Positions 23,997 to 35,314 of a DNA stretch of 64,000 nt are shown here, in pieces. A program made the translations under genes and the position numbers. The notes under the pieces are model-generated. The model ran no database searches. It saw only the letters and a list, made by a program, of their open reading frames with translations, and was not told where the DNA came from. The stretch's first letter is position 1. Each line of letters starts with the position of its first letter. This stretch comes from Spiribacter vilamensis (GTDB lineage Bacteria > Pseudomonadota > Gammaproteobacteria > Nitrococcales > Nitrococcaceae). The stretch spans positions 868,001-932,000 of the forward strand of contig NZ_SHLI01000001.1 of NCBI RefSeq assembly GCF_004217415.1, read 5' to 3'.

Positions 23997-24848
23997 ATGC
24001 CTGCATCGCTTTCACTCGCCTCGATCGGACTTTTCCTCGGCTCAGCGCTGGCGTTCCTGGCCGTCGTGACGGGACTCGCTCCGGCCATCCGGCGCTATCG
24101 ATGCCATGTCCGCGAGACGGCACAGGGTGATCTTCGTGCCCAGTTCATCAATCTACCGGCGCGCACGCTCCTGCAGCTCGCGCTCGGCCTCGGCCTGGTC
24201 CTGACGCTCTCCACCGCGGTAGTGCTTCCCTGGCCTTTGCCCGCCATGGCGGGCCTCACCGGGCTGATGCTGCCGCGTCTCGCCGTGCGCACCATTCGTC
24301 AGCGCCGCCGCCGCGGGATTATCCGCCAACTGCCCGATGCCCTGCAGGCGCTGGCAGGCTCGCTGCGGGCCGGCACCAACATCGGCCGCGCCATGGAGCT
24401 CGTCTCGAGACGACAGCGCCCACCGCTCAGCGAGGAATTCGGGCTCATGCTGAGCCGCCAGCGCCTCGGCGAGGAACTTGACACCGTCCTTGCCGGGTTC
24501 GCCGACCGGGTGCCCTCGGAGGAAACGGCGCTGTTTCGCAACGCCGTGATGATCTCGCACCGCGTCGGCGGTGATCTTGCCCACACCCTCGACACCCTCG
24601 CCGAGACCCTCCGTGAACGTGCCCAGGTCGAGGAGCGCATCGCCGCGCTGACCGCTATGGGCCGGATGCAGGGACGGGTGATGTGCATCCTGCCGTTCGG
24701 CATCGGCGGCATGCTCTACCTCCAGCAGCCGGTGATGATGCAGCGGCTTTTCACCGAGCCCCTCGGCTGGGGAGTGATCGGCATCGTCGCGATCGCCATG
24801 ACCCTGGCGGTGATCTGGATCCGGCGACTGGTAGCGATCGATGTCTGA
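23997..24848 (+). CDS. tadB: Tad pilus platform protein TadB (type II secretion F domain)
   Basis: 283 residues from ATG 23997; a TTG at 23961 would add 12 residues and overlap gshA, and neither start has a strong ribosome site. Inner membrane protein with two N-terminal helices, a central cytosolic T2SSF domain (L-P-D-A-L-Q-A-L-A-G-S-L-R-A-G, R-V-G-G-D-L-A-H-T-L-D-T-L) and two C-terminal helices. TadB and TadC form the platform on which the TadA ATPase acts. First gene of the Tad block here, whereas it commonly follows tadA in other loci. Overlaps tadC by 8 bases. Confidence 0.9.
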   Translation: MPASLSLASIGLFLGSALAFLAVVTGLAPAIRRYRCHVRETAQGDLRAQFINLPARTLLQLALGLGLVLTLSTAVVLPWPLPAMAGLTGLMLPRLAVRTIRQRRRRGIIRQLPDALQALAGSLRAGTNIGRAMELVSRRQRPPLSEEFGLMLSRQRLGEELDTVLAGFADRVPSEETALFRNAVMISHRVGGDLAHTLDTLAETLRERAQVEERIAALTAMGRMQGRVMCILPFGIGGMLYLQQPVMMQRLFTEPLGWGVIGIVAIAMTLAVIWIRRLVAIDV

Positions 24849-25731
24849 ATCGGCACCGTTCATTACGGTCGCGCTGTTCGGCGTGGCCGCTGCCGCCGGC
24901 ATCACGGGCGTGGCCGAGCTGCTTCGACCCGGTCAGTGGCGGCATGCCGATCCATGGCGCGACCCCTCACCGCGGCTTTTCCGACTCCTGCTGCCGATGG
25001 CGAGGGCACTCGCCGAGCGCATCCGCCCCGAGCGCTGGATGTCGACACGCGATCTGGCGGGGCGACTCGACCGGGCCGGCATGGGCTATGCCGTGCTCGC
25101 CGAGGAGTGGATGGTGCTGCGCGGATTGACGGCCCTCGCCGCCGTCATCGTTACACTCGCCCTCCAGCCGGCACTGCGCGAGAGCGGCTGGGACGGCCCC
25201 GGATCACTGCTCGGCGCCGCACTCCTCGGCGGCGTCTATCCGGCAATCTGGCTCCGCGATCAGGGCCTGCGCCGGCAAAAACGGATCGCCCGGCAGTTTC
25301 CGGCACTGCTCGAACTGCTGGGCCTGTCCGTCCGGGCGGGAATGAGCTTCAGCGCGGCGCTACCGCAGTGCAGTGCCCATCTCGAGCGGGGCCCGCTACG
25401 CGAGGAAATGCAGCGCGTCGATCGGGAGATCCGCACCGGCGTCCCTCGCCTGCAGGCGCTCGAGCGCATGGCGAGCCGGGTCGATCTTGGTGCCGTGCAC
25501 GGGTTTGTCGCCGCCATCGCCCAGGCGGATGAGACCGGCGCCGCGATCAGCCAGACCCTCACCGATCAGGCGGCACAACGCCGTCGCGAGCGGTTCGCGG
25601 CCGCCGAGAAGAAGGCCAACGAGGCCCCGGTCAAGATGCTCGCGCCGCTGGTCGGGCTGCTTTTCCCGGTCACCTTTCTGATCATCGGCTTTCCGATCGC
25701 GATGCAGTTCCTCGAAGGCCGGCTGCTGTGA
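24841..25731 (+). CDS. tadC: Tad pilus platform protein TadC (type II secretion F domain)
   Basis: 296 residues. N-terminal membrane helix, a cytosolic part with G-L-S-V-R-A-G-M-S-F-S-A-A-L and A-D-E-T-G-A-A-I-S-Q-T-L and C-terminal helices around K-M-L-A-P-L-V-G-L-L-F-P, matching TadC. It overlaps tadB by 8 bases and the next gene by 4, so the three are cotranslated. Partner of TadB in the pilus assembly platform. Confidence 0.92.
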   Translation: MSESAPFITVALFGVAAAAGITGVAELLRPGQWRHADPWRDPSPRLFRLLLPMARALAERIRPERWMSTRDLAGRLDRAGMGYAVLAEEWMVLRGLTALAAVIVTLALQPALRESGWDGPGSLLGAALLGGVYPAIWLRDQGLRRQKRIARQFPALLELLGLSVRAGMSFSAALPQCSAHLERGPLREEMQRVDREIRTGVPRLQALERMASRVDLGAVHGFVAAIAQADETGAAISQTLTDQAAQRRRERFAAAEKKANEAPVKMLAPLVGLLFPVTFLIIGFPIAMQFLEGRLL

Positions 25732-26102
25732 GCCCGCCCGTCGCGGATCAGTCCACGATCGCGCTACCGATGGAGACCGGCGTGCTGCGCATTCGTATCA
25801 CCCTGGCCGATCGCTTCCTCCCGCGGCTGATCGGGCTGCTGGGGCAGGCGACACCACCCCCGCCCGGCACCGGACTCCTGCTGATCTCCCGCGGCGGCGT
25901 CCATACCGTCGGCATGCGTTATCCCATCGACATCCTTGCACTCGACCGGACCCTGACCATTCTGCGCGTCCATCACGCCGTTGCACCGGGTCGATTCCTG
26001 CGCGCCCCACGGGGAACCGGCGCCACCCTGGAACTGGCCGCTCACAGCGTTCCACCCGGTCTTATCGGCCATCGCTTCCACTCCGAAGAGGATCTCGCAT
26101 GA
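25728..26102 (+). CDS. DUF192 (UPF0127) family protein
   Basis: 124 residues from GTG 25728 overlapping the tadC stop. The DUF192 core is seen: R-L-I-G-L-L-G-Q, then G-L-L-L-I-S-R-G-G-V-H-T-V-G-M-R-Y-P-I-D-I-L, and A-T-L-E-L-A-A. DUF192 proteins are generally small beta-barrels of unknown function, often secreted; this copy has no clear signal peptide. Position inside the Tad gene run suggests a linked job, but that is inference. Overlaps the TPR lipoprotein gene by 4 bases. Confidence 0.8.
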   Translation: MSPPVADQSTIALPMETGVLRIRITLADRFLPRLIGLLGQATPPPPGTGLLLISRGGVHTVGMRYPIDILALDRTLTILRVHHAVAPGRFLRAPRGTGATLELAAHSVPPGLIGHRFHSEEDLA

Positions 26103-26560
26103 TCATGCACCGACCGGCGCGCCTCGCCCTGATCGTCCCGATGCTCCTGCTCCAGGGCTGCCTCGCCCTGACTCCGAACGGGCCACCTTCGGTCATCGAG
26201 ACCCTCGCGGCTGCGGACAGCGCCCTCGAGCGCGGCGACATCGAGCAGGCGCGAATGGGCTACGAACGGGCCCTCGAACAGTCACCGGCACTGGTATCAC
26301 CGCATTTCCAGCTCGGGATTATCGCCTATGGCCGCGGCGACGACCCGGCCGCGCTGGAGCACTTCGACGCCGCGCTCGAGCGCGACCCGGGGCATGTACT
26401 CGCCACCTACAACCTCGCCGTCGTTCACCTGCAACAGGCCCGTTCACTGCTCGACCGCCACGAGCGGCTGGCGCCGATCAGCGCGGGGCGCCCCGATTTA
26501 ATCCGGATCCGCCAGGCGATCGGGGCGCTGGGGCGATCGGCGGCGGGCACCCGCGAGTGA
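26099..26560 (+). CDS. TPR lipoprotein, TadD-like
   Basis: 153 residues. Lipoprotein signal peptide with lipobox L-L-L-Q-G-C (Cys21), then about three tetratricopeptide repeats (for example R-G-D-I-E-Q-A-R-M-G-Y-E-R-A-L-E-Q-S-P, A-L-E-H-F-D-A-A-L-E-R-D-P-G-H). TadD is the TPR pilotin-like lipoprotein of Tad systems that helps place the secretin. It is short for TadD but in the right locus. Directly followed, with no gap, by an apolipoprotein N-acyltransferase-like gene. Confidence 0.82.
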   Translation: MIMHRPARLALIVPMLLLQGCLALTPNGPPSVIETLAAADSALERGDIEQARMGYERALEQSPALVSPHFQLGIIAYGRGDDPAALEHFDAALERDPGHVLATYNLAVVHLQQARSLLDRHERLAPISAGRPDLIRIRQAIGALGRSAAGTRE

Positions 26561-28444
26561 ATGGCCGGCCTTCTCACCGGCCTCCTCGGCATTGCCGCCC
26601 TGCCGCCGATCGCCCTTTTACCGGCCGGACTGATCTGGCTGGTCCCGTGGCTAATGGCACTGCATGCCTCCCCGCCGCGGCGGGTCGTGGAGACGCTCGT
26701 GGCCATCGGCCTCCCCGCCGGATTCGCGATCGGCCCCGTCGTCATCGCCGAGCCGCGACTCACGCTTGTCGTGATCGGTGCCACTCTGACCCCGTTCATC
26801 CTGACAGCCCTGCTCGCGACGGATCGACGCGGTCGAGGCTCGCCGGGCCGGCTGATCATCGCGGTCATCGTGCTCTGCGGACTCCTCGCCGGAGTGCGCG
26901 CACTCGGCCTCCCGCTCTCGCTCAGCCTGTTTCTGCCGACGGGTTTCATCCACCTGCCCCTGATCGGCGCGGGCGGGATACTGGCCTCGGATCTCGCCAT
27001 CGGCCTCCTGCAAACGGCGCTCGCCATTTTACTGCACCACCGGCGGGCCCGAGCGATGACGCCCGCCATCGCGGCCCGGTTTACCGTGGCCCTGTTTGCA
27101 CTGCTGCCGCTCGCCCTGGTCCAACCGCCCGTCGCGACCACCGATGACGCCGAGCGCGCGCGGATTGCGGTTATCCAGACCAACATCACGCCCCGGACCC
27201 GTCACCAGGCCATCGCGGACGGCGGACTGGAAGGCCTCAAGGCGCGCCAGCAACACCTCGCGCGGACCGCCGGGCAGCTGGATGCGGACTGGATCATCTG
27301 GCCCGAGGCCGCGTCGCCGGGGTTTCTCGGGCCGGACTGGCGAGTCACGGACTCATCGGCAACCCACCTGCGTCATGGCTACCGCTACCACCGGCCCGGC
27401 CGTGTCGAAAGCGAGGTCCGGCTATCCGCCGGCAGCGGGGATGAGGATGCCACCGGGCGGCGCTGGGGTAAGCATTACCCCCTGCCCTTCGCCGAGCGCG
27501 ATCTGAGCCCGGTGCATCAAATCAATACCACTCCGCCGGACATCGATGCCCTCGAGGTGCTGATCTGCTCCGATGGCACCCACCCCGGCGCTGTGGATCG
27601 GGCCGCCGCACGTCGACCACGGGTCATCCTCAACCCCGCGAGCGTCGCCTACCTCGGATCGATCCCGCTGCCCGGAATGCACCAGCGCAGTGTTCACCTG
27701 CAGTCGGCGCGGGTCGCTATCGCCATGATCGTCGTCGCTAACGCCGGACCGAGCGCGGTGCTCTACCCGGATGGCAGGAGACGCGTCCTCGCCGCGCCCT
27801 ATACGAGCGGAGTGGCGGCGCTGCCACTGCCCGATCGCTACATCGCCAGCGACCAGGACCCGGGCGTTCTCTATGGCCTGCTCGCGACCGGCTTTGTGGC
27901 CCTTGGCGGCAGCCGGCGAATGCGGGCCCGATCCCCGGCTCGATCATCGCCCCGCTCCGCATGGCCGGTCGTCGGCCTCGCGGCCGCATCAATCGGCATC
28001 GCCATCGTCCTGCAGCATCGATCGCTGGAGAAATTCAGTAGCGCAGCAACGCCGGCGCTGGCAACGCCCCTCGAGACTCGCGCTATTCACTCACCCGCGG
28101 CCGGACACCGCGGTAGCATCGCCCTTCTGGCGCGGGAGTTCGGGGTCGCGACGGACTGGCAAGCCGTCCCCGCATCGGTGGACGCGGCCATGGGCTGGCT
28201 GTGCCGCCAGACGGGACTGATCCCCATGGACCCAATGGCATCATCGATCCGCCCGCCGGCGTTCGGACTGCAGCAATCCACGACCGGGCTTCGGGCCGTG
28301 CGCTGGCGCGTCGGCGCGCAACCCATCGCCTTCGATGCATCGACCGCAGAATTCCAGGCGATTGAGGCTGATGATCCGGCCATTCACTGGCTCGCTACCG
28401 CCCGAACCCTCGACGACTGCCGTTCGGTCATCGCCCCCGAATAG
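26561..28444 (+). CDS. Lnt-like apolipoprotein N-acyltransferase homologue with extra C-terminal domain
   Basis: 627 residues. Residues 1-190 contain about six membrane helices; 200-430 form a nitrilase-fold domain with R-I-A-V-I-Q-T-N-I, I-I-W-P-E-A (E249), W-G-K-H-Y-P-L-P-F (K304) and L-I-C-S-D-G (C336), the Glu-Lys-Cys triad of apolipoprotein N-acyltransferase; a last helix is at about 469-485. About 140 further residues (488-627) of a domain I do not recognise follow, absent from usual Lnt. Lnt normally adds the third acyl chain to lipoproteins in the periplasm. Lying in the Tad operon right after a lipoprotein gene, it might acylate that lipoprotein or a pilus component; this is inference. 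The residue after the catalytic Cys differs from the C-Y-E of housekeeping Lnt, so an amidase role is also possible. Confidence 0.75.
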   Translation: MAGLLTGLLGIAALPPIALLPAGLIWLVPWLMALHASPPRRVVETLVAIGLPAGFAIGPVVIAEPRLTLVVIGATLTPFILTALLATDRRGRGSPGRLIIAVIVLCGLLAGVRALGLPLSLSLFLPTGFIHLPLIGAGGILASDLAIGLLQTALAILLHHRRARAMTPAIAARFTVALFALLPLALVQPPVATTDDAERARIAVIQTNITPRTRHQAIADGGLEGLKARQQHLARTAGQLDADWIIWPEAASPGFLGPDWRVTDSSATHLRHGYRYHRPGRVESEVRLSAGSGDEDATGRRWGKHYPLPFAERDLSPVHQINTTPPDIDALEVLICSDGTHPGAVDRAAARRPRVILNPASVAYLGSIPLPGMHQRSVHLQSARVAIAMIVVANAGPSAVLYPDGRRRVLAAPYTSGVAALPLPDRYIASDQDPGVLYGLLATGFVALGGSRRMRARSPARSSPRSAWPVVGLAAASIGIAIVLQHRSLEKFSSAATPALATPLETRAIHSPAAGHRGSIALLAREFGVATDWQAVPASVDAAMGWLCRQTGLIPMDPMASSIRPPAFGLQQSTTGLRAVRWRVGAQPIAFDASTAEFQAIEADDPAIHWLATARTLDDCRSVIAPE

Positions 28445-28535
28445 CCGACTGGCGGTACTTCGCGACGCCGGCGATCGTGTCCAGTCTGGTTGGCAACGGC
28501 TCATTGCCGGGAGTCACGTCAACCAGGGAGGCGCC

Positions 28536-28823
28536 ATGATCGTTCAACACCCGCATCCAGGCACAGGGCTCAAGAGCCGCCATCGCCAGCGCGGACAGGG
28601 CATGTCCGAGTACATCATCATTACCGCACTGATCGCCGTCGCCGGCATCGGGATCTTCTCCGCCTTCGGCGATACGATCTCGAGCCAGGCCGCTGCGATG
28701 GCCCGCGAGATGGCCGGTCAGGACGGTAGCGATCAAATCGACCGGGCCGATGATCATTCCGAGCGCGCCGCTAGCCGTGCCGATCAGGAAGACACGCTGC
28801 AGAGTTTCGATGCGCAGAACTGA
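28536..28823 (+). CDS. Flp/Tad-type prepilin
   Basis: 95 residues from ATG 28536 (GGGAGG 7 bases before). A 20-residue basic leader ends in R-G, and cleavage there gives Q-G-M-S-E-Y-I-I-I-T-A-L-I-A, with Glu at +5 and Tyr at +6 as in Flp pilins, then a single hydrophobic helix. The tail after the helix is acidic and hydrophilic. This is the best candidate for the main pilin of the locus. It needs a prepilin peptidase; none is in the cluster. Overlaps the next gene by 14 bases. Confidence 0.85.
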   Translation: MIVQHPHPGTGLKSRHRQRGQGMSEYIIITALIAVAGIGIFSAFGDTISSQAAAMAREMAGQDGSDQIDRADDHSERAASRADQEDTLQSFDAQN

Positions 28824-30045
28824 TCCGCAGCGCGGCCAGGTCCTGCCGGTGGTGCTTGCAACGCTTGCCCTCGCGGCAGCGGCAATCGCCGTCAGCCACC
28901 GCGTCGCCCGCGGCGTCGCCCAGGAATCGGCGGTGGTCAACGCCGCCGATGCGGCCGCCTACAGCGGAGCCGCCTGGACCGCGCGCCGGCTCAACCTGAT
29001 CGCCTATACCAATCGCGCGCTCATCGCGAATCATATCGCCGTCGGCCATGCAGTCGCCTATATCAGCTGGTTGCGATACACCGATGATGCCGTCGAACAG
29101 ATCGAGCGCTACGCCCGCTTTATCCCCTATGTCGGCCCCGCCGTTAGCCAGGCCGAACGGCTCCTGTCCAAGGCGACGAAAGTGTCGGCGCACACGACCG
29201 GTCTCTACATCCGCGGGACGGATGCGTACCTGGATATCCTGACCACCACGCAGTACGACGCCCGAATCGGGCTGCGAAAAGGCAAGGTTGACGAGGCCAT
29301 GCGTCGTGTCGTTCATCGCCACGACGAGCAATTCAAGATCAATGACGCCGACGCCATCGATGCCATCCCGGCGCCGTACGAGGCTGGCATGGACGCGCGG
29401 CTTTTCGCCGAGCGGTTCTCGAGCTACCTCGCACTCGATTCGGTCGGCCCCGGAAAGGACGACGGTTACTTTCAGCGCCTTCTGTCGGCAACCATCGATC
29501 GTGATCGCGGACTGAGTCGCTGGTTACGGGGACCGGCACGCCGCGGGCGCCCACGCTATGGTCGCGGCGGCCGGAAATGGAATCACTCCGTTTTCCATAC
29601 GGTTCGGTTTCGCAAACAGGGCGTCACCCAGCAGCCCCCTCTGCCGGATGCCGGCGGCTGGCGATCGGGGGACCGGCTGCAGGTGAGCTTTTTCAACCCG
29701 GCCAAATTCAGCTGGGGATCCTGGGCGACCCTCGCGAGCGGGCGGGCGAGCGCCGATGGTCTCGGCGGCAACTACCGAGGTGTGAGCAAATATACACGTC
29801 TTGAAAATCCACCCGCAGACAAGAAGCTGCTCCGGATCCCGGCACTGGTCACCGCACCGCTTCCGGGCGCTGATGACGCGGATGACGCCAACGCCGTCAA
29901 TGCGCATCTGAGCATCGGCGAGGTGCGCTATCGAGTGCCCGATAACTGTGGCCGCTACTGCCCGGCGCGCCACCGCCCGGCCACCCTGTTCAATCCCTAC
30001 TGGGAGGCCGCTCTCAGCGAGCCGCAGTTACCGAGGCTGCCATGA
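28810..30045 (+). CDS. TadG-like pilus protein (Tad/PilX-type)
   Basis: 411 residues from ATG 28810. N-terminal basic segment then R-G-Q-V-L-P-V-V-L-A-T-L-A-L-A-A-A-A-I, a single membrane helix as in TadG/von Willebrand-like Tad proteins; A-V-V-N-A-A-D-A-A-A-Y-S-G-A is the typical continuation. The remaining 350 residues are a periplasmic domain I cannot assign; no vWA MIDAS motif is evident. Probably a minor pilin-like anchor or assembly factor of the Tad pilus. Overlaps both neighbours (14 and 4 bases). Confidence 0.75.
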   Translation: MRRTDPQRGQVLPVVLATLALAAAAIAVSHRVARGVAQESAVVNAADAAAYSGAAWTARRLNLIAYTNRALIANHIAVGHAVAYISWLRYTDDAVEQIERYARFIPYVGPAVSQAERLLSKATKVSAHTTGLYIRGTDAYLDILTTTQYDARIGLRKGKVDEAMRRVVHRHDEQFKINDADAIDAIPAPYEAGMDARLFAERFSSYLALDSVGPGKDDGYFQRLLSATIDRDRGLSRWLRGPARRGRPRYGRGGRKWNHSVFHTVRFRKQGVTQQPPLPDAGGWRSGDRLQVSFFNPAKFSWGSWATLASGRASADGLGGNYRGVSKYTRLENPPADKKLLRIPALVTAPLPGADDADDANAVNAHLSIGEVRYRVPDNCGRYCPARHRPATLFNPYWEAALSEPQLPRLP

Positions 30046-30800
30046 GCGGCCAGCACGGAACGGCCATGACGGAATCGCTGATCGGTCTGCTCGCCATTAT
30101 CCCGGCGTTTCTGGCGATGGACCATCTCGGACGCCTCCAGGACATGGAACGCGCCGCGATCGCCGGCGCACGCTATGCCGCCTGGGAGGAGATCAGCGGC
30201 CGCGGCAAAGACGATGCATTACCAATCGCCATCGAGGACCGCATCTTCGGCAACGATCACGCCCCGATCGTGGATAGGGCGCGCCTCAGACGCGAAGGCG
30301 TCAGCCAGAACCCGCTCTGGCAAGATCGCGACGGGATGCTCCGCGACACCGACGCGGATGGCATCCAACGCCAGGACGGACGCAAGCGCGGGAACTCCAA
30401 TCTGCCCGAGCCCGGCACTGCCGTCCGCAACATCGCCTACGGTCAGTCCATCCCCGATGTCATCGAGGCCACCGGGCTATCCGGTGACATGCTCGGATTA
30501 CCCCGGGAGACGCTCGTCGGCCATCGGCTACGGATGGGCGCCCGGCCCCGCCTCGAGGAGGGTGACCGAAACCCGCCGCTCGTCTTCGAGGCGCAGGGGG
30601 CTATTTCGCCGGGGCACTGGCAGGCCGGAAGTGACCGTGCCTACCAGCGACGGACCGAACGGATCGTCGCGAGTGAACCCGTCGATACGCTATCCAAACC
30701 CGCCCAGGCACTGGGCGGATTCTTCGTGTTCAAGGAGGGACGCTATGCCCGCTCGACCGACTTCGTACCCCGATCCGATCTTTTCCCGACCCGGCATTGA
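30042..30800 (+). CDS. TadE-like pseudopilin
   Basis: 252 residues. Short leader ending in H-G, then T-A-M-T-E-S-L-I-G-L-L-A-I-I-P-A-F-L-A-M: Glu at +5 and a hydrophobic helix, the TadE/TadF pseudopilin signature. The rest is a polar globular domain with no known signature. It would be cleaved by a prepilin peptidase and joins the pilus base or tip in Tad systems. Overlaps the TadG-like gene by 4 bases and the next gene by 56 bases. Confidence 0.78.
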   Translation: MSGQHGTAMTESLIGLLAIIPAFLAMDHLGRLQDMERAAIAGARYAAWEEISGRGKDDALPIAIEDRIFGNDHAPIVDRARLRREGVSQNPLWQDRDGMLRDTDADGIQRQDGRKRGNSNLPEPGTAVRNIAYGQSIPDVIEATGLSGDMLGLPRETLVGHRLRMGARPRLEEGDRNPPLVFEAQGAISPGHWQAGSDRAYQRRTERIVASEPVDTLSKPAQALGGFFVFKEGRYARSTDFVPRSDLFPTRH

Positions 30801-31506
30801 CCGACCGCAATGGCGCAGCTCCTTCGTGTCGGGACTCGCCACCGGCCTGCTGGCGATCTCCGCGACAGCGATCGGCAACGACTGCGCTGACGAGCTTCGC
30901 ACCCTCCCGCTGCCCGCAGATGCAGCCGAGGTGTATCGCGACGGTCAGGTTGTATTTGGCGGCAGAAAGATGTGCCAGCTTGCTTACAAGACGGAGGAAT
31001 CCATCGACATGCTCACGTCGCGATACGAGGAGCACTGGGAGCACAAAGCAGGAGATCTGTTCAGGCACGGAACCGGCGATAACGGCGACGCGATTCTGAC
31101 GCAATCGGGAGGTCCCCGGGAGCGCTACATGGAGATTCAGCGCGACGGGTCGGGTCATGCAGTGATGGTCAACATCATCGCGAATCCCGGCGCGGACGTA
31201 ACATCCGTTAAGCCTTACATCCCGCTGCCGGACAGCTTCGAGGTGTTCACGCAGCAACGGAATCGCGATGGATTCACTGTGATCGCCCATACCTCGCTGG
31301 CATCCGAACCCGCGATCGAGCGGGTTGTGGAACGACTGGAGAGTGCAGGCTGGCGTGTCGATGATAATGGCCCCAGCCAATTGCTCGGATACCGGTTCGC
31401 GGCCATGAGCCGTGGCACGGATACACTCGACCTCGCTGTTGCCGGGAATGAGGAGGGGGCGCAGGCCACAATTCACGGCGTTGTCCCGGTATCGACCGAT
31501 GAGTAG
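30745..31506 (+). CDS. Exported protein of unknown function in the Tad locus
   Basis: 253 residues from ATG 30745, supported by AGGAGGG 5 bases upstream, so it starts inside the previous gene in another frame. A hydrophobic segment at about 27-44 (F-V-S-G-L-A-T-G-L-L-A-I-S) probably serves as a signal or anchor, followed by a region with two cysteines and no recognised domain. The C-terminal third has an alpha/beta look (A-I-E-R-V-V-E-R-L-E-S-A-G-W). Base composition is slightly lower in GC than neighbours. Position argues for a periplasmic Tad-system component. Confidence 0.65.
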   Translation: MPARPTSYPDPIFSRPGIDRPQWRSSFVSGLATGLLAISATAIGNDCADELRTLPLPADAAEVYRDGQVVFGGRKMCQLAYKTEESIDMLTSRYEEHWEHKAGDLFRHGTGDNGDAILTQSGGPRERYMEIQRDGSGHAVMVNIIANPGADVTSVKPYIPLPDSFEVFTQQRNRDGFTVIAHTSLASEPAIERVVERLESAGWRVDDNGPSQLLGYRFAAMSRGTDTLDLAVAGNEEGAQATIHGVVPVSTDE

Positions 31507-31627
31507 TGCCGAATACCTCGCAGTAGCGGCCGGTCTCGTCGGCGTATGGTCAGGCGTTGATCGGGTCATTAAGGCCCTGGGGAGCCACGGCGACGGCGTT
31601 CTCTGGACCCTCGCGATCCCCCTTTAG
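31499..31627 (+). CDS. 42-residue membrane micro-protein resembling a leaderless Flp pilin
   Basis: ATG 31499 overlaps the previous stop codon by 8 bases. The product M-S-S-A-E-Y-L-A-V-A-A-G-L-V-G-V has Glu at position 5 and Tyr at 6, followed by a hydrophobic helix, then V-D-R-V-I-K-A-L and a short polar C terminus. This is the mature N-terminal pattern of Flp pilins, but there is no leader before it. It might be a pilin-like subunit or regulator. Confidence that it is translated rests on overlap coupling only. Confidence 0.5.
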   Translation: MSSAEYLAVAAGLVGVWSGVDRVIKALGSHGDGVLWTLAIPL

Positions 31628-31651
31628 TCCGGATGCCTGGAGAGATCCGTC

Positions 31652-32440
31652 ATGAATCCCATAAAACGCGGTGTGCTGCTGGTCACCGGCGCCTTGATAG
31701 CCGGCGGTGCCGGGATCTGGTTCGGCGACCGCCATCTCGAGCAGCGAGCCAGTGCACTCGAGGCCGAACTGCGATCGGACCATGCCACACGCGCGGTGAT
31801 CGTCGCCCGCGACCATCTGCCCGAGGGCAGTCGGCTGACCCGGGATGGCGTTGCCATTCGCGATATGCCGGTGAAATTCACTCATGACAGTGCACTCGCG
31901 GCACCCGACTGGTCAGGCATCGCTGGACGGACGCTCAAGCGCGAGGTTGCTGCCGGCCGCGCGATTCTGCCCGCGCATGTCCAGGACACGGATCGGGCAC
32001 GACTCGCCGAGCAGGTCAAACCGGGGGATCGCGCCATCACCATCCCGGTATCCGGCGGTGCGGAGATCGCCGGCCTGCTCGGGCCCGGGGATCGGCTCGA
32101 TCTGATGCTGACTTATCGGAATGACGGCGAGCGCGAGACCGTTCCGCTCCTCGCCGATATCCCTATCCTTGCCACCGGCTCGGAGCTGGGTGACGCCGGC
32201 ACACCCCGAGGCCCCGTCCGGTATGACGATCTCACGCTGGCCGTCTCGCCGCTGGAGGCGGCACGGATCACCCACGCACTCGCGATCGGGGATATCCATG
32301 TCGTCCTGCGTTCCGATACCGACAACGCGCCGGTGGATGGCTTTCGCATCGACGCCGCGGCGCTCATCGATACCGGTCCGGACGCCGATCCAGGCAACGC
32401 CCCACCGGATATCGAACTGATCATCGGAGGCCAGCCATGA
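31652..32440 (+). CDS. cpaB: Flp pilus assembly protein CpaB/RcpC
   Basis: 262 residues. An N-terminal membrane helix, then a SAF-like domain (V-I-V-A-R-D-H-L-P-E-G-S-R-L-T) and the CpaB C-terminal domain (P-G-D-R-A-I-T-I-P-V-S, L-G-P-G-D-R-L-D-L-M-L-T). CpaB is a periplasmic partner of the secretin in Tad pili. GGAGAG lies 7 bases upstream. Four-base overlap with cpaC downstream. Confidence 0.92.
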   Translation: MNPIKRGVLLVTGALIAGGAGIWFGDRHLEQRASALEAELRSDHATRAVIVARDHLPEGSRLTRDGVAIRDMPVKFTHDSALAAPDWSGIAGRTLKREVAAGRAILPAHVQDTDRARLAEQVKPGDRAITIPVSGGAEIAGLLGPGDRLDLMLTYRNDGERETVPLLADIPILATGSELGDAGTPRGPVRYDDLTLAVSPLEAARITHALAIGDIHVVLRSDTDNAPVDGFRIDAAALIDTGPDADPGNAPPDIELIIGGQP

Positions 32441-33717
32441 GCCGCCCCTGTCACCGACACCTGATCGCCCGCATCGCCCTCGCCGCCGGGCTGCTCTGGA
32501 GTCCGCTGACGGCCGCCATCGAGGTCGCCATCGGCCACTCGCGGATCGTCGAGGCGAGCGATATCACGCGTGTTGCCCTCGGCGACGGCGCCCTGGCGGA
32601 GGTCGAGGTGCTCGGTGATGGCGATGGTGTCCTGCTGATGGGACGGGCCGCCGGCCGCACCGATCTGCGACTCTGGTTGGGGAATGGCGAATCCCGGCAT
32701 TTGCCGGTGATCGTCCGGCCGTCATCGGCGTCGACCCGTGATCCGCAACTCGAGGCACTGGCGGCGCGGATCGGCGGCGTCACGCTCGAGCGCACCGCGG
32801 ATGAGTATTTCGTCACCGGCCAACCGGCAACGAAGCGCGACCGGCAGCGCTTCGAGACGCTCATTGCCGCCTACCCGGCACTCGGCGATTTCACGGATCC
32901 GCTGTCGATGACGGAGACACCCACGGTGCAGGTCAAGGCGCGGTTCGTGGAGTTGCGCAAATCCACGCTGCGCGAGATCGGCCTGGACTGGGCCACGCAG
33001 TCGCCGGCGATCAGCTTCGCCTATGCCTCCGATCTCGAGACCAACGATGTATTCCGCGGCGAGCTCGGCGAGTTCCTGCCGTCCAACGCCCTGCCGCTCG
33101 ATATCGGCAAGGGGAACGGCTATCTCGGCGTCGGCCTGAGCCTGACTGCCATGATCGATCTGCTCGGTCAGTCCGGCGAGGCACGGGTCATCGCCGAGCC
33201 CATGCTCTCGGCGCTGAGCGGCACATCGGCCGAGTTCCAGGCCGGTGGCGAGGTGCCCATCCCGATCCAGGGCGCCGATGGCGCGCCCTCGGTGACGTTC
33301 AAGGACTACGGGATTCTGCTCAAGGTCGCCCCTCGGGTGGGCGATGACGCACGGATTCGCACGCGCATCGAGGTGGAGGTAAGCGATGTGGACGAATCCG
33401 TCACGGTCCTCGGCGTCCCCGGGTTCTCGGTGCGCAATGCAGTCACGGAGATGAGCGGCGCGAGTGGCCAGACACTGCTCATTGCCGGGCTCATCGACGA
33501 GCAGCAGTCGCGCGCCGTCAGCGAGGTGCCGGGACTCGGTCAGCTCCCGGTCATCGGCCGACTGTTCCGCTCGGAGCGATTCCAGAACCAGCAGACCGAA
33601 CTCGTCGTGCTGATCACGCCCACCCTACAGGACGAACCTGCCGCGGCGACGCCTCGCGACCCCGCAGGTCGGTCCGCCTCCCGTCGCCTGCCGCTTGAGG
33701 AGATCCGTTATGAGTGA
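32437..33717 (+). CDS. cpaC: Tad secretin CpaC/RcpA
   Basis: 426 residues. Signal peptide ending near L-T-A-A, an N-terminal pilus-assembly (BON/N0-like) region, then the secretin domain from about residue 160 (F-V-E-L-R-K, L-S-A-L-S-G-T-S-A-E-F-Q-A-G-G-E-V-P-I-P, A-P-R-V-G-D-D) with the final V-P-G-L-G-Q-L-P-V-I-G-R-L-F and E-L-V-V-L-I-T-P. It forms the outer membrane channel for the pilus. It has few transmembrane or pilotin motifs of its own, so the TPR lipoprotein may position it. Overlaps tadA by 8 bases. Confidence 0.94.
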   Translation: MSRPCHRHLIARIALAAGLLWSPLTAAIEVAIGHSRIVEASDITRVALGDGALAEVEVLGDGDGVLLMGRAAGRTDLRLWLGNGESRHLPVIVRPSSASTRDPQLEALAARIGGVTLERTADEYFVTGQPATKRDRQRFETLIAAYPALGDFTDPLSMTETPTVQVKARFVELRKSTLREIGLDWATQSPAISFAYASDLETNDVFRGELGEFLPSNALPLDIGKGNGYLGVGLSLTAMIDLLGQSGEARVIAEPMLSALSGTSAEFQAGGEVPIPIQGADGAPSVTFKDYGILLKVAPRVGDDARIRTRIEVEVSDVDESVTVLGVPGFSVRNAVTEMSGASGQTLLIAGLIDEQQSRAVSEVPGLGQLPVIGRLFRSERFQNQQTELVVLITPTLQDEPAAATPRDPAGRSASRRLPLEEIRYE

Positions 33718-35314
33718 GCTCGAGCTCGTCCACCGATTCGGGGATTACTCCCCCACAACCCTCCCGCTCCACCGGGGCGCTCGCTACGCGATCGGCAGCA
33801 GTCGTCGCTGCGACCTGCGCATCAGCGGTAGTGGCATCGCCCGCCGCCATGCCGAGCTGCGTGTCGACGAGTACGGCGTGCATATCCGTCTGCTTGCCGG
33901 TCGCAAGGAGATTGTCTTCAACGGCGAACCGGTCCGTCAGGCCGGCCCCCTCGCCGCCGGTGATACCCTCAGCCTCGGCGATGCGAACTGGCAGATCCGT
34001 CAGGCCGCATCCGACACCGTCTGCGAGGTCGCGGAACCCACGCCCACGCCCATTACAGCCGCATCGCCACAGGCGCCCGTTACCCCGGTTGCGCCGCGGA
34101 TCTCACCCGATCTCGTGCGACGCTTCCAGGAGGGCATCAGCCAGCGACTCGATCTGTATCGCCGCGATATCCTCCAGACGCTCTCCGCGCAACGGCTTCG
34201 CGAGGAGGCCGCGGCCACGGCGTGGCAATTGATCGAGGAGGGAGAGCTCACGCTGCCCGCCGAGGTCGATGCCGAGACCGCCGTCGCCGCGGTGGTCGCC
34301 GAGACCGTCGGGCTCGGGCCGATCGAGTCACTCATGGAAGACCCGGCGGTCAGCGAGATCATGGTCAACGGCCACGAGCGGATCTATGTCGAGCGTGGCG
34401 GGCGGCTCGAGAGAACGGCGCTGGAGTTCAGTTCGGCCGCCTCGCTCGACAGCGTCCTCGATCGCATCGTCTCGCCACTGGGTCGACGACTCGACGAGGG
34501 CTCGCCCCTGGTGGACGCACGGCTGCCGGACGGCTCGCGGGTCAACGCCATAATTCCGCCACTGGCGCTTAACGGCGCTACGCTCACCATCCGACGCTTC
34601 GGCGACGAGCGGATCGGACTCGACGACCTGATCCGCTTCGGTGGACTGGATCGCGAAATGGCCGACTTCCTGCGCCTGTGCGTGCACCGGCGCCGCAACA
34701 TCCTGATCGCCGGCGGCACCGGTACCGGCAAGACCACCGTACTCAATGCCCTGTCCGAGGAGATCGACGAGTCGGAGCGCATCGTCACCATCGAGGACTC
34801 CGCCGAGCTTCGCCTGCAACAGGACCACGTCGTGGCGCTCGAGTCACGACCGCCGAATATCGAGGGCAGTGGCGCCATCCCGATCCGCGACCTGGTCCGC
34901 AATGCGCTTCGCATGCGGCCCGACCGGATCCTCGTCGGTGAGTGCCGCGGCGGGGAGGCCCTGGACATGCTCCAGGCGATGAATACCGGCCACGACGGGT
35001 CACTGACTACGGCCCACGCCAACACCCCGCGTGATGCCCTCGCCCGACTCGAGGTAATGACACTGATGGCGGGCATGGATCTGCCGGCGCGGGCAATCCG
35101 CGATCAGATCGCCGCGGCAATCGATATCGTGGTGCAGCTGACGCGATTCGGCGATGGCGCGAGGCGAATCACGGCGATCACCGAGGTGGCGGGAATGGAG
35201 GGCGACCGGATCCTGCTCACCGAGCTGTTCCGGTACGACGACGGGTTTCATGCCACCGGCCAGATGCCGGCGTTTATCGAACCGACACCGGCATCGGTGA
35301 GCGGATTTACATGA
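33710..35314 (+). CDS. tadA: TadA/CpaF secretion ATPase with N-terminal FHA domain
   Basis: 534 residues from ATG 33710 (TGAGGAG 7 bases upstream, preferred to TTG 33695). Residues about 1-100 are an FHA domain (Y-A-I-G-S-S-R-R-C-D-L-R-I, G-I-A-R-R-H-A-E-L), a phosphothreonine reader. The C-terminal part is the hexameric ATPase: Walker A G-G-T-G-T-G-K-T-T (about residues 334-342), V-T-I-E-D-S-A-E-L, Walker B R-I-L-V-G-E-C-R, and T-A-H-A-N-T. It drives pilus assembly through TadB/TadC. The FHA domain suggests control by protein phosphorylation; no Ser/Thr kinase is in the window. Its last 8 bases overlap the convergent sufT gene. Confidence 0.95.
   Translation: MSELELVHRFGDYSPTTLPLHRGARYAIGSSRRCDLRISGSGIARRHAELRVDEYGVHIRLLAGRKEIVFNGEPVRQAGPLAAGDTLSLGDANWQIRQAASDTVCEVAEPTPTPITAASPQAPVTPVAPRISPDLVRRFQEGISQRLDLYRRDILQTLSAQRLREEAAATAWQLIEEGELTLPAEVDAETAVAAVVAETVGLGPIESLMEDPAVSEIMVNGHERIYVERGGRLERTALEFSSAASLDSVLDRIVSPLGRRLDEGSPLVDARLPDGSRVNAIIPPLALNGATLTIRRFGDERIGLDDLIRFGGLDREMADFLRLCVHRRRNILIAGGTGTGKTTVLNALSEEIDESERIVTIEDSAELRLQQDHVVALESRPPNIEGSGAIPIRDLVRNALRMRPDRILVGECRGGEALDMLQAMNTGHDGSLTTAHANTPRDALARLEVMTLMAGMDLPARAIRDQIAAAIDIVVQLTRFGDGARRITAITEVAGMEGDRILLTELFRYDDGFHATGQMPAFIEPTPASVSGFT

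Follow-up and report, generated by a model that had tools for sequence, protein, structure and literature searches.

Background

The Tad (type IVc, Flp) pili of Caulobacter, Aggregatibacter and Pseudomonas are the described systems with which we compared a locus of Spiribacter vilamensis, a gammaproteobacterium with a genome of 2.08 Mb. The locus lies in a stretch of 64,000 nucleotides (bases 868001-932000 of contig 1, hereafter the window) and consists of 13 co-directional genes on the + strand at 23997-35314. With the three described systems it shares a TadA-type ATPase, two platform proteins, CpaB/RcpC, a secretin, an Flp pilin, TadE/TadG and a TPR lipoprotein. It differs from them in having an FHA domain on the ATPase, added DUF192, orphan and Lnt-like proteins, a permuted gene order and a leaderless minor pilin. 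In addition, it is without TadZ, CpaD/RcpB and TadV.

Kil of Myxococcus xanthus is an FHA-CpaF Tad system that has been studied (PMC8460266). Like the present locus, Kil has an FHA-fused ATPase, small Flp minor pilins (KilK and KilO) and PilD as a suspected pilin processor (PMC8460266, PMC12075869). Unlike the locus, it is split over clusters and possesses a peptidase (KilA) and tip variants of its own, and KilK and KilO carry leaders; these two small pilins act as adapters between the tip complex and the Kil pilus, and polymerisation requires them (PMC12075869). FHA-CpaF proteins constitute class III of a published CpaF scheme, with the same N-terminal FHA domain, linker and ATPase as the TadA studied here; the class is described as mostly betaproteobacterial, whereas the present host is a gammaproteobacterium (PMC12019362). 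A leader whose last residue is invariably Gly or Ala is the defining feature of prepilins (review PMC10191384). For minor pilins, function is said to depend on prior processing (PMC12075869).

Judged by gene content and order, the locus is a permuted member of a common, apparently unnamed FHA-CpaF Tad lineage. What is new is its leaderless minor pilin, a microprotein of 42 residues; the gene set is widespread, and FHA-CpaF ATPases had been described before. We put at roughly 0.7 the probability that the genes encode one complete Tad machine of this lineage in a permuted gene order, with the microprotein as a leaderless fourth pilin in the filament.

A leaderless ortholog of a minor pilin

In other loci of the lineage, the slot between the exported orphan and cpaB is occupied by an Flp-like prepilin with a mature part of about 50 amino acids. 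Its leader ends in Gly(-1); the mature part has Glu5-Tyr6 (or F/W at position 6) after four residues, continues into a hydrophobic helix and terminates in a sequence such as EYAWSLMIPF. The microprotein occupies the same slot. When all six frames of the window were searched with a profile of about 50 leadered orthologs, the microprotein was the only significant open reading frame (E-value 3.6e-8), and a profile made from a gammaproteobacterial subset of the orthologs matched it with an E-value of 4e-10. All 12 microproteins tested gave E-values of 2e-5 or lower, against a best value of 0.088 among 600 shuffled controls.

The microprotein is always 42 amino acids long, which is the mature length of its closest leadered orthologs. 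Glu5-Tyr6 is invariant among the microproteins and the C-terminal W..P motif is kept in register. Gapless comparison with six leadered orthologs that have a 42-residue mature part gave 31 % identity in register and no more than 10.5 % at other offsets; the microprotein thus matches the mature pilin residue for residue, with Met replacing residue +1. By this strong comparative evidence the microprotein is an ortholog of the small Flp-like minor pilin, a relationship that an earlier, sequence-only reading of the window had missed. A search of PHROGs returned no match for the microprotein, the orphan or the DUF192 protein.

The leader is missing, and the gene has exactly 42 codons, in 13 of the 13 genus genomes that contain the region and in L123, a contig of a metagenome-assembled genome (MAG). 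Of the 51 loci outside the genus with a readable slot protein, 49 have Gly and one has Ala as residue -1 (locus L167 is doubtful). Within the genus the residue at this position is arbitrary (P, R, A, S, V, T, A, S, I, A, D). Since it lacks a leader ending in Gly or Ala, the microprotein does not itself qualify as a prepilin, despite being orthologous to one.

A misjudged start would give the microprotein a leader after all, read from an upstream start, from an unusual start codon or through a frameshift. In the window the frame is indeed open for 30 codons upstream and offers GTG, ATG and TTG candidates. However, seven loci (L037, L041, L042, L043, L045, L205 and L123) have no earlier in-frame ATG, GTG or TTG, and in several of the loci stops lie a few codons upstream; in L205 an in-frame stop is found two codons ahead of the Met, with a single codon between. 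Residue -1 is not Gly, and the upstream nucleotides show no codon-phase constraint: the 39 bases before the ATG differ at 0.71/0.67/0.70 for codon positions 1/2/3, compared with 0.36/0.28/0.59 from the ATG onward. In L045, AAGGAGG stands immediately 5' of the ATG. We therefore regard a misjudged start as highly improbable.

Loss of the 5' part is typical of early gene decay, and the absent leader could be taken as the mark of a decaying remnant. Against this, the length is exactly 42 codons in every genus genome with the region and in L123, and the ratio of nonsynonymous to synonymous substitution rates (dN/dS) in close pairs is about 0.1-0.35, well under 1 and indicative of purifying selection. 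Decay is scarcely credible on these values. On this strong sequence evidence, the leader is truly gone in the genus. The permuted relatives outside the genus (L124, L125, L126 and L131) are still leadered, which, if a single loss is assumed, probably places that loss later than the permutation.

No naturally leaderless pilin was found in the literature, in a search that left subscription journals mostly outside. The pilD suppressors of Synechocystis were considered as a precedent and set aside, as they concern a point change in the leader and not its loss. An ortholog that is fixed without a leader throughout a genus separates the roles of the leader (topology, keeping the subunit inert until cleavage, exposure of the N-terminal amine) from those of the mature pilin. 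At 42 residues the protein is also easy to manipulate, and it offers a testable exception to the prepilin-leader rule.

Proposed assembly and the place of the microprotein

In the machine that we propose, CpaC would form the outer-membrane channel with the TPR lipoprotein as its likely pilotin, CpaB would align the channel, and TadB and TadC would serve as the platform. FHA-TadA would power assembly, perhaps with phospho-threonine signals as its switch. The leaders of Flp, TadE and TadG would be cut by the general peptidase PilD; this processing is presumed because PilD is the only A24 peptidase of the genome, and exchange of peptidases between systems is on record (PMC6668835). The microprotein, its leader deleted, would be translated directly as the mature form, insert via its hydrophobic helix, join the filament without processing by a prepilin peptidase and couple the TadE/TadG tip to the Flp shaft. 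By analogy, we infer a tip adapter like KilK and KilO.

Glu5 in type IV filaments can pair with the N-terminal amine of a neighbouring subunit (PMC10191384). That the microprotein still enters the filament is argued from the invariance of Glu5. We find it rather probable that the protein is a pre-matured type IV filament subunit which has shed its leader, avoids the prepilin peptidase, relies on its helix only for insertion, is still built into the pilus and is stable genus-wide; its N-terminus would then be formyl-Met, Met or Ser, with no amine made by the peptidase.

Several points weigh against the proposed assembly. Position 2 is Ser or Thr, and methionine aminopeptidase might cut off Met1, in which case Glu would come to stand at position 4. 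With the basic leader gone, the positive-inside signal for topology is weak; a C-out orientation is still favoured by the C-terminal flank of the microproteins, whose net charge averages -1.4. The adapter role is modelled on Kil, and the part given to PilD is deduced from its being the lone peptidase.

Alternatively, the microprotein may descend from a minor pilin and now act outside the filament, as an inner-membrane regulator or plug that holds, for example, TadE/TadG or TadB/TadC. Leader loss takes away the usual maturation step, and a membrane-held pilin-like helix could bind the same partners. However, the pair Glu5-Tyr6 never varies, and the mature length is kept in full with the C-terminal W..P in register, which would be expected if contacts in the filament still matter. 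We consider a role outside the filament possible but unlikely.

Gene set and order of the locus

The genes of the locus are listed in Table 1 together with the peptidase gene. Most of them overlap their neighbours, and the locus is flanked by gshA and suf genes (sufU). The sequence-only reading had described 13 overlapping or closely spaced genes on one strand in this order, and open reading frame coordinates and profile searches agreed with it. The genes it named were supported by profile or slot evidence; its list omitted the TPR lipoprotein, a plausible TadD pilotin.

Table 1 Window coordinates of the Tad genes and of the prepilin peptidase gene
Feature	Coordinates	Strand	Evidence
PilD, sole A24 prepilin peptidase of the genome	2578..3390	+	PF01478 genome search, one match; 4-Cys N-terminal region, GYGDFK motif
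TadB inner-membrane platform	23997..24848	+	PF00482 (T2SSF) E 1e-16
TadC inner-membrane platform	24841..25731	+	PF00482 (T2SSF) E 7e-18
DUF192 protein	25728..26102	+	PF02643 E 2e-6; downstream of tadC at most loci
TPR lipoprotein, probable TadD-like pilotin	26099..26560	+	TPR families E 4e-10, lipobox LLLQGC; after DUF192 in relatives
Lnt-like membrane N-acyltransferase paralog, extra C-terminal domain	26561..28444	+	TIGR00546 E 2e-13
Flp major prepilin, RQRG/QGMSEY (slash, cleavage site)	28536..28823	+	alignment; leader kept in all genus members
TadG-like minor pilin, QRG/QVLPVV	28810..30045	+	slot conserved; family profile matches other Tad loci
TadE-like minor pilin, QHG/TAMTES	30042..30800	+	slot conserved; family profile matches
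Exported two-domain orphan	about 30826-31506 (start codon uncertain)	+	recurs in most of the lineage's loci
Leaderless Flp-like minor (adapter) pilin, putative; 42 aa, Met at mature +1, Glu5-Tyr6	31499..31627	+	homology, slot
CpaB/RcpC	31652..32440	+	TIGR03177 E 5e-41
CpaC/RcpA secretin	32437..33717	+	PF00263 E 1e-40, PF13629 E 2e-12
TadA/CpaF ATPase, N-terminal FHA domain (class III CpaF)	33710..35314	+	PF00437 E 3e-63, PF00498 E 6e-10

As expected of a Tad pilus, the locus encodes a TadA/CpaF-type ATPase, separate TadB and TadC proteins, CpaB/RcpC, a secretin and an Flp-type major prepilin with G(-1) and E5. In the ATPase, PF00498 spans residues 26-90 and PF00437 residues 200-479, and the match to TIGR03819 (E-value 8e-101) is slightly under the family cut-off. 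The Flp, TadG-like and TadE-like pilins matched no public family model in profile searches, the Pfam Flp family included. All three have class III leaders, and their counterparts in other Tad loci were matched by their own profiles.

When the genome was searched with T2SSE and T2SSF, these genes proved to be its sole Tad set; the remaining matches fell to an MSHA-like type IV pilus and to one more pair of the GspE/GspF type. Whole-genome profile searches found no TadZ/CpaE, CpaD or TadV. The AAA_31 matches were ParA, ParA-like, MinD, ArsA, Mrp, Wzc-like and short ParA-like fragment sequences, with no TadZ among them, and the A24 peptidase search returned PilD alone. The sequence-only reading had recognised none of the three in the locus, and the absence extends to the genome; a normal set elsewhere, which it had named as a possible refutation, was searched for with a negative result. 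Genus relatives have one or two A24 peptidases each, with none found in one genome that is 86 % complete.

The MSHA-like locus (L048, C1:853578-867500) lies just upstream of the window and includes PilT-like, secretin, PilB-like and platform genes. The PilD gene comes after it, and the peptidase is presumably shared. At C1:2041482-2041868 (L026), a ParA-like gene is present in two short frames and is possibly a frameshifted remnant.

Distribution of the lineage

The gene string is not a product of chance, as its order and its flanks (gshA and sufU) are kept in the genus relatives examined. FHA-TadA was found in 13 of 13 other genus genomes searched. The Flp pilin profile matched 38 of 369 genomes drawn from the class, and gene neighbourhoods were surveyed in 20 of these 38 and at 80 named loci from a GTDB genome scan. 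The usual order, seen in most loci, is flp-tadG-tadE-orphan-[minor Flp]-cpaB-cpaC-FHA::tadA-tadB-tadC-DUF192-TPR. This gene set occurs across dozens of beta- and gammaproteobacteria, including Shewanella, Idiomarina, Marinobacter, Alcanivorax, Paraburkholderia, Massilia and Variovorax. In loci of the Idiomarina type the orphan was not picked up by its profile, and neither MinD-type P-loop nor A24 motifs were seen in 17 related clusters. From the survey, one can define the gene set of an FHA-CpaF Tad lineage without TadZ; the lineage is common in these two groups and has the exported orphan and the minor Flp pilin among its regular parts.

The order in the window is a permutation of the usual one, with tadB-tadC-DUF192-TPR-lnt ahead of flp, which bears out the earlier description of platform genes first and ATPase last as atypical. 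Outside the genus the permuted order was observed in at least four loci (Marinobacterium iners, Amphritea balenae, Ca. Thiodiazotropha and MAG BWSM_30); elsewhere the set mostly follows the usual order. In the TadA tree, the genus, these four loci and three canonical loci form one clade with a Shimodaira-Hasegawa-like approximate likelihood ratio (SH-aLRT) support of 99, and a single origin of the permutation is possible.

It had also been proposed that the locus is a distinct, undescribed Tad subtype with unusual extra genes. The permuted order, the absence of TadZ, CpaD and TadV from the genome and the lack of any paper found that gives the gene set a subtype name would fit a subtype restricted to this organism. 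However, the extra genes belong regularly to the lineage, the set is widespread, FHA-CpaF already has a class (PMC12019362) and Kil has been studied (PMC8460266). A subtype of this organism alone is therefore improbable; the proposal is supported in part, in that the lineage is apparently unnamed.

Further variants were observed in the lineage. The Moraxella bovis plasmid NZ_CP087831.1 (L206, 1-23527) has the same Tad set with a leadered minor pilin, flanked by a DUF2235 gene and RHS-repeat genes; the annotation of the Tad genes gives no subtype name. An extra FHA-domain protein of about 460-570 residues is encoded between the DUF192 protein and the TPR lipoprotein in canonical loci of the Lnt-bearing group (L082/L101 of genome G108, L086/L103 of G136, L087/L104 of G096 and L085/L105 of G236); it is absent from the window genus, and the G136 copy matched FHA and, weakly, TPR in Pfam. 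Two or three tandem flp genes are found in L095 (G331), L146, L153, L165, L173, L179 and L198.

The Lnt-like protein and the exported orphan

The Lnt-like protein shares with Lnt its fold, membrane region and catalytic Glu-Lys-Cys triad (E249, K304 and C336, all invariant), and its AlphaFold2 (AF2) model matches Lnt structures with an E-value of 1e-14. It differs from Lnt in being a divergent second copy that scores under the family cut-off of Lnt and has an additional domain at its C-terminus; a separate housekeeping Lnt is encoded in the genome. The protein may acylate the TPR lipoprotein or another product of the locus. As an essential part of the locus it was rejected, because two genus genomes (G003 and G011; loci L203 and L205) lack the gene. 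The leaderless pilin is kept in both, and likewise in L123, the partial contig of a Great Salt Lake MAG, from which the Lnt-like gene is also missing.

The extra C-terminal domain (window 28070-28444) has about 110 residues, of which WLC and a C-terminal Cys are invariant in the genus. For its assignment as a C39 peptidase there is a single weak Peptidase_C39 match (E-value 0.2) in one relative.

The exported orphan had no match in Pfam, NCBIfam or sequence-based searches of the PDB and no clear fold match in the PDB. Its AF2 model (predicted local distance difference test score, pLDDT, of 86.6) shows two tandem alpha/beta domains.

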